48,591 bases of DNA, from NCBI GenBank assembly GCA_002841865.1, contig PHBD01000023.1:1-48591 (forward strand). Reading direction: 5' to 3'. Below, in pieces: positions 2,083 through 37,689 of the stretch. The stretch is from Deltaproteobacteria bacterium HGW-Deltaproteobacteria-19. Lineage in GTDB: Bacteria; Desulfobacterota; Syntrophia; Syntrophales; PHBD01. Position numbers and translations under genes: made by a program. Position 1 is the first letter of the stretch; every line of letters starts with the position of its first letter. The notes beneath the pieces are model-generated. The model was not told where the DNA came from. It was given only the letters and a program-made list of their open reading frames with translations, and did not search any database.

Positions 2083-3351
2083 CTACTTCTCGCCGTCCAG
2101 GCGGAACAGGCGGCGCAGGGCCTCCGCGTACGCCGCAGCGCCGTTTTCCTGGCTCTCCTCCTTGAGGCCCGTGATGGGGTCGTGGAGAATCTTGTTCACT
2201 ATCGAGGACGCCAGGATCTGCACCCGCTCCCGGTCCGCGTCGCTCAGTCCTTCAAGCCATGAAGAGACCCGCTCCATCTCGCCCTGAACGATGCCGTCCA
2301 TCTTCTCCCGGAGGGAAACGATCGTGGGCACGACCTCCAGGGTGTGGAACCACCCTTCGTAGCGATCCAGTTCCTCGGCGACGATGTCCTCCGCCTTCCG
2401 GGCCTCCGCCAGTCGGCCCCGGACGTTTTCGTCGACCACTTCCTGGAGGTGGTCGATGTTGTACAGGTAGACATTGTCGATGTCGCCCGCGGCGGGATCG
2501 ATGTCCCGGGGGACGGCGATGTCGATGAGGAACAGGAGCCGGTTCTTCCGGCGCCGCAGGGCCGACGCCACCATCGGGGCCGTGACGACCCAGCCGGCCG
2601 CGCCGGTGGAGCTGATGACGATGTCCGCCTCCTGGAGCGCCCGGGCCAGCTCGTCGAAGGGAACCGCCTCGCCCCGGAACTCCTCCGCCATGCTGACGGC
2701 CCGCGCGTGGGTCCGGTTGACGACGAGGATCCGCGGGGCTCCCTGGCCGATCAGGTGCCGCGCCGCCAGCTCCGACATCTCGCCGGCTCCGATGAGGAGG
2801 ATTGTCTTTCCCCGGAGGCTCCCGAAGATCTTCTTCGCCAGCTCCACCGCCGCGAAGCTCACCGACACGGCGTTGGCGGCAATGCCCGTCTCGGTGCGGA
2901 TCCGCTTGGCCGTCCGGAAGGCATGGTGAAGCAGCTTGTTCAGGACGGCCCCCGTGGCCTTCCGCTCCACCGACAGGCGGTAGGCGTCCTTCACCTGCCC
3001 CAGGATCTGCGGCTCCCCCATGACGAGGGAATCGAGGCTCGAGGTCACCCGGAAGAGATGGCGAACCGCCTCCCGGTCATAATGCGTATAGAGGCAGCGG
3101 TCCATCTCCTGGCGTTCCAGGTTCCCGTAGCGGAAGACGAAACCGTACAGCCCTTCGGCGGCCTCCCGGCTCCCGGCGCGGGCCAGGATCTCCACCCGGT
3201 TGCAGGTGGAGAGGAACAGGGCCTCCTCGACGCCGGGCGTCCGCAGGACCTCCGCCAGGGGATCGCTCCCGTCCTCGCAGGTGATGCTCAGGCGCTCCCG
3301 GATCTCCAGGGGGGCCGTTTTGTGGTTCATGCCGACGAGAATGAGGCTCAT
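2083..3351 (-). CDS. hemA: Glutamyl-tRNA reductase
   Basis: A 422-residue protein, first enzyme of the C5 pathway, which reduces glutamyl-tRNA to glutamate-1-semialdehyde with NADPH. MNHKTAPLEIRERL at the N-terminus and the catalytic Cys50 in LSTCNRVEI are visible. A Rossmann domain follows (LLIGAGEMSELAARHL, about residue 187), then the C-terminal dimerisation helices. Its ATG is 4 bp after the stop of the CcsA/HemX-like gene, a frequent pairing in which the membrane protein modulates or accompanies HemA. Confidence 0.96.
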   Translation of the reverse strand: MSLILVGMNHKTAPLEIRERLSITCEDGSDPLAEVLRTPGVEEALFLSTCNRVEILARAGSREAAEGLYGFVFRYGNLERQEMDRCLYTHYDREAVRHLFRVTSSLDSLVMGEPQILGQVKDAYRLSVERKATGAVLNKLLHHAFRTAKRIRTETGIAANAVSVSFAAVELAKKIFGSLRGKTILLIGAGEMSELAARHLIGQGAPRILVVNRTHARAVSMAEEFRGEAVPFDELARALQEADIVISSTGAAGWVVTAPMVASALRRRKNRLLFLIDIAVPRDIDPAAGDIDNVYLYNIDHLQEVVDENVRGRLAEARKAEDIVAEELDRYEGWFHTLEVVPTIVSLREKMDGIVQGEMERVSSWLEGLSDADRERVQILASSIVNKILHDPITGLKEESQENGAAAYAEALRRLFRLDGEK

Positions 3352-36108: not shown

Positions 36109-36247
36109 ATGTCAAAGAAAAAGACGGGCCCGTCAGAAGCACCGACCCGTCTCATTACAGCGCCGCGGCAAAGTGAATGCGGGTTACGAACCGTGCCCGC
36201 CGCTCCGCATGCGGCCGGCCCGACGGCCCCGGGGCCGCGTCACGAAC

Positions 36248-36583
36248 CTACTGCAGATTCCGATCGACGATCGCCGCGAGTTGTTCCCGGGGCAGCATGC
36301 CGATCCGCGTCTCCCGAACCTCGCCCTCCCGGATCACCAGGAGCATCGGGATGCTTCGCACGCCATACAGGAGCGACGTCTTGGGGTTCTCATCCACGTT
36401 GACCTTCACGACGTTCAGATGCCCTTCATAATCCCGGGCGATCTCTTCCAGAACGGGCCCCATCGCCCGACAGGGACCGCACCAGGGCGCCCAGAAATCG
36501 ACCAGCGTCGGCCGCTCCGCATTCAACACCTCAACGTCGAAGGATGCATCGTTCACGGACTTCAAATGTTCCTGAGTATTCAT
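36248..36583 (-). CDS. trxA: Thioredoxin
   Basis: A 111-residue thioredoxin with VDFWAPWCGPCRAMGPV active site (CGPC) and the cis-Pro in VRSIPMLLVIREG. Cytosolic, no signal peptide. ATG 36583 has AAGGAGGAAGGG before it. Its upstream region contains the perfect FNR-type box at 36689-36702, about 105 bp from the ATG, which could give oxygen-dependent control. Confidence 0.95.
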   Translation of the reverse strand: MNTQEHLKSVNDASFDVEVLNAERPTLVDFWAPWCGPCRAMGPVLEEIARDYEGHLNVVKVNVDENPKTSLLYGVRSIPMLLVIREGEVRETRIGMLPREQLAAIVDRNLQ

Positions 36584-36688
36584 TTTCCCTTCCTCCTTAT
36601 GCATAAACTTTCGTGGTTTCAGTAGGACGGCTGTGTTAGAATTTCTATCCCGTTGGTTCCTCTCTACAGGAGGACGCAGAATGGGTCA

Positions 36689-36702
36689 TTGATCTGGATC
36701 AA
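36689..36702. promoter_or_regulatory. Perfect FNR/CRP-family box
   Basis: TTGATCTGGATCAA matches the FNR consensus TTGAT-N4-ATCAA exactly. It lies between trxA (leftward) and the remains of a Crp/Fnr regulator (rightward, ATG at 36721), so it could serve either. Confidence 0.75.
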
Positions 36703-36720
36703 CGCCGGCAGAGATAATTC

Positions 36721-36926
36721 ATGGATACAGCAAAACAGATCCGGGAAGTCGCCCTGTTCGACGGGATCGGCCGAGAACGCCTGAACGCCCTGGCGGCAAA
36801 AGTCTCCCGGAGGCCCTTTCGCGGCCTATCAGGAAAATGAGCAATGAAGGTCTTCTCCGCACGGAGGGCCGGGGCATCCACCTGCTGGACCGAGCGGCTC
36901 TCGTGCAACTGGCGGAGGGAAGCTGA
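36721..36926 (+). pseudogene. Crp/Fnr family regulator, internally deleted
   Basis: ATG 36721 opens MDTAKQIREVALFDGIGRER, a typical start of a cyclic-nucleotide-binding regulator, and stops at TGA 36838 after 39 codons. In another frame (36837-36926) the tail NEGLLRTEGRGIHLLDRAAL plus a few residues is the usual end of the C-terminal winged helix. Around 150 residues in between, with most of the sensor and the recognition helix, are gone. A deletion with frame change explains it. Confidence 0.75.
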
Positions 36927-37002: not shown

Positions 37003-37689
37003 GTGATCGACGTGGAACGAATGAAGAAGGAAATCGAGGAGCGGCTGAAGGAGATGCAGCCGTTGTTCTCCAGGAAAAAGTCGGAGCTCAGTCCGGAGAG
37101 AAGCCTCCAGCGGGCCTTCGCCCTGGCCAGGGCCATCGCCGTCTCCCATGAGGTCCGGGATACATACAAGGAAGGGCACCAGTTCAGGGTGGCCGACCTC
37201 GCCCGCGCCATCGGCGAGCAGATGAACCTGGACAAGGACCGGATCACCGGCCTCCGGCTGGCGGGCCTGATTCATGATATCGGCAAGATCGACATTCCGG
37301 GAGAGCTTCTCAGCAAACCGACGAAGCTTGACGAAAGCGAAGCCCGGATAATGCAGACCCACGTCGAGATCGGGCACGCGATGCTGAAAGGGATCCGCTT
37401 CCCCTGGCCGGTGGCGAGGATGGTCTGGGAACACCACGAGAGGATGGACGGTTCCGGATACCCGAGAGGCCTCAAGGGAAAGCGAATTCTCCTGGAATCG
37501 CGCATCCTCGCGGTTGCCGACGTAGTGGACGCGATCACGTCCAGGCGGGCCTACCGGCCGGCCCGGGAGGTTCACGTTGCCATCTATTCCATGAAGGGGG
37601 ACCGGGGCGGCCTCTACGATCAGGACGTCGTGGATGCCTGCCTGCGGCTGTTCGACGTTCAGGGCTACAAGATGCTCGACCTGGACTGA
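37003..37689 (+). CDS. HD-GYP domain phosphodiesterase-like protein
   Basis: A 228-residue cytosolic protein starting at GTG 37003 behind GGAGGTG. The HD-GYP signature is complete: LAGLIHDIGKIDIP, the second His region QTHVEIGHAML, HHERMDGSGYPRGL and RILAVADVVDAITSRRAYRP. Such proteins hydrolyse cyclic di-GMP or related dinucleotides. A short helical lead (first 40 residues) is the only addition. Followed by the YihY gene 22 bp later, probably in one operon. Confidence 0.92.
   Translation: MIDVERMKKEIEERLKEMQPLFSRKKSELSPERSLQRAFALARAIAVSHEVRDTYKEGHQFRVADLARAIGEQMNLDKDRITGLRLAGLIHDIGKIDIPGELLSKPTKLDESEARIMQTHVEIGHAMLKGIRFPWPVARMVWEHHERMDGSGYPRGLKGKRILLESRILAVADVVDAITSRRAYRPAREVHVAIYSMKGDRGGLYDQDVVDACLRLFDVQGYKMLDLD

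Follow-up and report, generated by a model that had tools for sequence, protein, structure and literature searches.

An FNR-type box beside trxA and the deletion of its probable Crp/Fnr regulator in a Syntrophales bacterium

The oxygen-labile cluster of FNR is held by four cysteines. In Escherichia coli, FNR governs a global regulon through the consensus TTGATnnnnATCAA, and at 19 of the 23 FNR-activated promoters with a known start described in PMC3688515 the site lies within 4 nt of -41.5. DNR of Pseudomonas (PDB 3dkw) is described as using an FNR-like box without the FNR cysteine motif to control denitrification (PMC1274295). The same account presents HcpR1 of the delta-proteobacteria as a member of this superfamily without the FNR cysteine set, acting on local, divergent targets; its site TTGACnnnnGTCAA lies before hcp and frdX, and its motif is given as wyTTGACnnnnGTCAArw (PMC1274295). 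A search of the open PMC literature found no description of a Crp/Fnr-thioredoxin regulon in Smithella or Syntrophus.

The locus considered here lies in the window, the whole stretch of 48,591 nucleotides analysed (contig PHBD01000023.1), which belongs to the genome of Deltaproteobacteria bacterium HGW-Deltaproteobacteria-19 (G000; 4.0 Mb, 87 contigs, 4.7% contamination). Its Crp/Fnr regulator is broken, and the protein is seen whole as an orthologue (P0002) in G001, the single comparison genome from the same genus. P0002 belongs to the Crp/Fnr superfamily, with PF00027 at 75 bits and PF13545 at 63 bits, each above its cut-off. It reaches 63 bits against the cut-off of 228 for NCBIfam Fnr and is not FNR sensu stricto; having one cysteine, it cannot hold the four-cysteine cluster, so the box should not be taken for an oxygen-sensing FNR site. 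What the locus has in common with E. coli FNR is the consensus and a site centre predicted here at -41.5, whereas sites are few per genome rather than those of a global regulon. The FtrB activator model (NCBIfam NF006901) likewise gives 110 bits against a cut-off of 211. The regulator matches the DNR structure at E 6e-20, a likeness by sequence match, and DNR differs in controlling denitrification (PMC1274295). HcpR1 shares with the lost regulator the superfamily, the proline and glutamate specificity residues (by eye), the TTGA...TCAA core, the local divergent targets and the lack of an FNR cysteine set (PMC1274295). The two part ways in their sites: the conserved site of the lost regulator, mostly TTGAT-YYRR-ATCAA, precedes the regulator itself and trxA, while the hcp/frdX-like sites sit with a paralogue, the HcpR-like protein of the window genome, to which the G001 orthologue is 39% identical.

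The box and the broken regulator

The exact FNR-type box TTGATCTGGATCAA (TTGAT-N4-ATCAA) occupies 36689-36702 and, as the first-pass annotation had stated, stands 18 bp (36703-36720) before the ATG at 36721 of the Crp/Fnr remains. It is the sole exact match in the window, where sites with at most one mismatch number 3 against 1.88 expected, that is, at chance level. A genome-wide search for further copies, which the annotation had proposed, gave six exact matches in G000 and none to the reversed control; four of the other five lie within open reading frames and one ends 15 bp 5' of one. The window box also fits the stricter form TTGATYYRRATCAA and is the only match to it in G000 (reversed pattern, 0); it is proposed as an operator common to the divergent trxA and Crp/Fnr genes. 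On the plus strand at 36668-36692, an AGGAGG is followed by a three-codon reading frame (ATG GGT CAT TGA) whose stop overlaps the box; the G001 version reads ATG CGT CAT TGA.

The regulator gene lacks 466 bp relative to G001. Its alignment falls into two blocks that overlap at window 36806-36822 and lie 449 bp apart in G001, which together give the length missing; since three does not divide 466, the two remaining parts are out of frame. The left remnant (36721-36822, plus strand) retains 28-34 homologous codons within a reading frame of 39 codons that continues past the junction to the TGA at 36838-36840. The right remnant (36807-36926, plus strand) holds the end of the helix-turn-helix and the wing. 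A 29-codon tail recognised earlier begins at an internal ATG, and since homology in that frame extends back to 36807-36822, 33-39 C-terminal codons survive. The annotation had called the regulator dead, with its first 39 and last 29 codons left. Death is borne out by the missing 466 bp and the broken frame, and both ends do remain, but the homologous codons are the 28-34 and 33-39 just given. Directly 3' follows an HD-domain gene (37003-37689, plus strand), intact in the window and in G001.

The position of the junction (plus strand) is ambiguous across 36806-36822, which can be aligned with either flank of the missing G001 segment and resembles both of its ends there (CCGGAAACCCTTTCGC on the left, CCGGAGGCCCTCTCC on the right), a pattern that a deletion between short imperfect repeats would produce. 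One might instead suppose that the assembly is wrong here, or has caught a minority variant, and that the regulator is intact in most cells. The 87 contigs and 4.7% contamination of the genome speak for this, as does the lack of a clear excess of window-lineage amino-acid changes in the remnant. However, the stretch shared by the flanks is 17 bp with mismatches, in our judgement short for repeat-driven collapse in the usual assemblers, the event has the appearance of a natural deletion that joined imperfect repeats, and a search of the genome at E 1e-20 found no second copy of the regulator. An artefact of this kind is unlikely.

The loss shows no sign of age. Against G001, at 88% local identity, the remnant has 14 amino-acid differences; polarised by the commonest state of 33 orthologues, the window agrees with that state at 6, G001 at 4 and neither at 4. 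There is thus no clear extra decay in the window lineage, and the deletion is apparently recent. A high share of amino-acid changes in the remnant had been considered as decay, and was dropped once 6 of the differences were assigned to G001 and 4 to the window, with 4 left unclear. From the exactness of the box the first-pass annotation had drawn that another Fnr-type protein may still use it. Because the loss shows no age, exactness is no evidence of present use and is explained without a current user: by our own arithmetic, 14 unchanged bases at 88% identity would be met by chance about one time in six. As proof of selection, too, an exact box was set aside for lack of power.

A short product of the remnants, either the 39-residue peptide or the 29-codon tail, might be imagined to act on the box still, since for some placements of the junction the recognition helix PEALSR would be retained in the right remnant. 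Such a product would lack any sensor or dimer part and a complete helix-turn-helix, a proline adjoins the helix at a position where all 33 orthologues have another residue, and a ribosome site before the tail ATG is not evident by eye; continued activity of this sort is very improbable.

A second, independent wreck of the regulator-trxA module is found in another genome (L121; G067:C197:26000-32000, 2700-3340). There the regulator lacks its start and an inner part, trxA lacks both ends, and no box lies between them; one breakpoint in the regulator, at about codon 191, nearly coincides with that of the window.

The box in relatives and the predicted trxA promoter

The intact regulator that the annotation had advised seeking in relatives is present in G001, as a gene of 223 codons for amino acids, with trxA divergent and a box identical to that of the window. 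Relatives lacking both gene and box would have spoken against its proposal; G001 keeps the two. The 30 best-matching orthologous loci in the order (L038-L067) include G001. In 27 of them a box lies 14-25 bp 5' of the aligned regulator start, 21 times exact and 6 times with a single mismatch; L054 and L067 have no box near the start and L066 has one with two mismatches. A further 20 loci with record titles (L068-L087) come in many cases from the same genomes, and 18 of them have the box, L083 and L085 being the exceptions; these come from Smithella (which belongs to the order Syntrophales), Syntrophus, Syntrophaceae and two Desulfovibrio-type records. Two weak matches from other phyla (L088, L089) have no box. 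The recognition helix TPE[AS]LSR is found in all 34 aligned orthologues (TPEALSR in 33, TPESLSR in 1), and in some of their boxes one half or both halves read TTGAC. In L074 the regulator has a TauE-family gene nearby.

On the other side of the box lies trxA (36248-36583, minus strand), which encodes an intact thioredoxin with a WCGPC site; its reading frame is open from 36604, with a likely start at 36583 behind AAGGAGG. The comparison took in the regions upstream of 69 TrxA genes, 20 of which had been chosen as controls from regulator-bearing genomes. A box with at most one mismatch was present 105-160 bp from TrxA residue 16 in 33 of the 69, against a mean of 0.26 and a maximum of 3 in 200 runs of single-base shuffles of these regions. 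When 68 TrxA sequences are placed in a midpoint-rooted tree (L051, boxed, was left out for its short translation), they divide 34/34, with the box in 33 of one clade and none of the other (Fisher P 2.5e-18). In this count L152 is taken as boxed, although its box departs from the TTGAT form at two positions; many of these loci were found through a neighbouring regulator and all are related, so that the 34 are not independent draws. Within the boxed clade, 32 have TTGAY-YYRR-RTCAA, L162 has another N4, and the wrecked L121 has no box; L162 had been picked as a control, so that 1 of the 20 controls fell in the box clade. Stronger evidence for the association of box and trxA than the regulator-adjacent loci comes from loci where the two genes are separate. 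Four boxed trxA genes (L123, L124, L179, L186) have no regulator in the fetched stretch, and in L125, L127 and L128 a distance of kilobases separates trxA from the regulator, with a separate box at each gene.

That the window box is a functionless chance match might be suspected from the six exact boxes in 4 Mb and the four of the other five that sit inside reading frames. But position and form are conserved across dozens of divergent loci, at trxA and, independently of it, at the regulator, and coincidence is left with next to no probability.

The distance from box to trxA is mostly near-constant. From box centre to TrxA residue 16 it measures 130-138 bp in 27 of 33 cases, the others being 114, 120, 121, 127, 128 and 152. 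When the 33 trxA sequences are anchored on the box, a TA step stands at an offset of 36 nt from the box start in 32, while at every other offset from 20 to 59 TA is found in fewer than 12. Read as the start of a -10 element, this step puts transcription initiation at offset 48, an A at window 36654 (minus strand), and the box centre at -41.5, which is the class II position of FNR-activated promoters. The predicted -10 of the window, TAGAGA (36661-36666, minus strand), is poor apart from the TA step. An activator site near -61.5 had been considered by eye and was dropped once the TA step was found. With the clade association (33/34 against 0/34) and this fixed geometry, the earlier suggestion that the box serves trxA on its other side is very probably right.

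The subfamily boxes have a YYRR centre nearly throughout. Searched for in 33 genomes, namely G000 and 32 that have the regulator, the stricter form TTGATYYRRATCAA is present in 27, with 1-4 sites each and a total of 53, against a single genome for the reversed pattern. G000 and G001 have exactly one each, at trxA. The six genomes without an exact match (G064, G065, G066, G069, G096, G100) mostly have boxes in which position 5 is C in one half or in both. Twenty of the 53 sites, outside the trxA-regulator module, were examined, of which 13 are intergenic and 7 lie within reading frames. Six extra sites adjoin a gene for a pyridine-nucleotide disulfide oxidoreductase (L239, L240, L216, L246, L249, L229; assigned by Pfam on L246 and by similar sequence for the other five), and two adjoin a TlpA/AhpC-type thioredoxin (Pfam on L247). 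These neighbours are suggestive of a wider regulon beyond the module, and hint that it serves to control the redox state of thiols or sulfur. The pattern TTGAYNNNNRTCAA barely exceeds its reversed control (11 against 8 in G000, 11 against 5 in G001), so single matches to it mean little.

The two genomes also differ behind trxA. In G001 an SBF-family (ACR3-like) transporter gene follows it (L037:4877-5869), where the window has a gap between trxA and dinB (36138-36215). The transporter is found in 5 of 155 genomes of the order, G001 included (E <= 1e-40). Its four other loci have no regulator and no exact box nearby, and one has a site with one mismatch. No convincing transporter remnant was found in the window, the best internal match being 29 bp at E 0.026. 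A joint loss of the regulator and this transporter, as its target, was considered; as the gene is rare in the order and has left no convincing remnant, its gain in G001 is as likely as its loss in the window. In a Desulfovibrio record (L086), a transporter gene 63% identical to it lies divergent to a Crp/Fnr gene.

Present use of the box and the proposed switch

A PF13545 search of the genome returned two intact Crp/Fnr proteins besides the remnant, together with three further matches judged by eye to be proteins of other kinds. The two intact genes encode one and two cysteines, and the idea of the box as a global anaerobic FNR site was rejected for this reason. One of them, on C46, has the helix RETVSR with an arginine at position 180 (by eye). 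Arginine at this position is reported to correlate with G at site position 3 (PMC1274295), which makes the C46 protein a poor candidate user of the box.

The other, on C48 (C48:14484-15134), has the helix IPETLSR, with proline and glutamate at both specificity positions, as in the TPEALSR of the lost regulator (by eye). Its gene adjoins a TTGACTTAAGTCAA site and a 4Fe-4S protein gene (G000:C48:14484-15195; the 4Fe-4S assignment is a Pfam match from the G001 copy), and TTGACTTAAATCAA stands 27 bp 5' of a Prismane/Hcp gene (C29:14563), sharing the ATCAA half with the box. Both sites are also present in G001. The paralogue agrees with HcpR1 in having sites of the TTGACnnnnGTCAA kind before itself/frdX and before hcp, and in its residue at position 180 (Pro or Ser in HcpR1), a likeness drawn from these features. 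Among the proteins of the genome it is the best candidate for present use of the box, a possible one.

If the paralogue had taken over the orphan box, it would now activate trxA under nitrosative or redox stress. The two shared specificity residues (by eye) would allow this, as would overlapping site sets, in which the Hcp site has an ATCAA half and some orthologue boxes read TTGAC. At position 5, nevertheless, both halves of the window box carry T in place of the C of the HcpR1 consensus, and there is no second case of handover. Of 32 genomes with a box-clade TrxA, 28 have the full regulator, 2 have one truncated where the contig ends (L119, L122), 1 has it wrecked with the box gone (G067), and the window's alone keeps trxA and box without a regulator. 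The takeover therefore remains a minority reading, conceivable but doubtful. A related form, in which the regulator was recently deleted, HcpR is in the course of taking the operator, and trxA is joining a nitrosative-stress regulon, appears rather improbable.

We favour, with considerable though incomplete confidence, the reading of the box as the operator of a local Crp/Fnr-thioredoxin switch whose regulator was lost here through the 466-bp deletion. On this evidence from sequence comparison, a small switch of a Crp/Fnr regulator and trxA, often divergent, would have been kept across several families of the order. TTGAT-YYRR-ATCAA is the most likely binding site of the regulator, which, with the predicted site centre at -41.5, most likely acts as a class II activator of trxA. 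The placement of the site 14-25 bp 5' of its own start codon makes self-control most likely too, probably as a repressor, as judged from position alone. In the window lineage, the deletion between two short similar stretches would have taken most of the regulator and broken its frame, leaving the operator without its protein beside trxA, the predicted -10 and the ribosome site. Expression of trxA would then probably continue at a basal, uninduced level.

The comparison would define a local regulon of syntrophic bacteria, with a Crp/Fnr subfamily, a site (TTGAT-YYRR-ATCAA), a thioredoxin as its target and a directly testable class II geometry. The window would represent a natural knock-out of the regulator in which the operator has been kept, and so a clean case for following the fate of a binding site after the loss of its protein.
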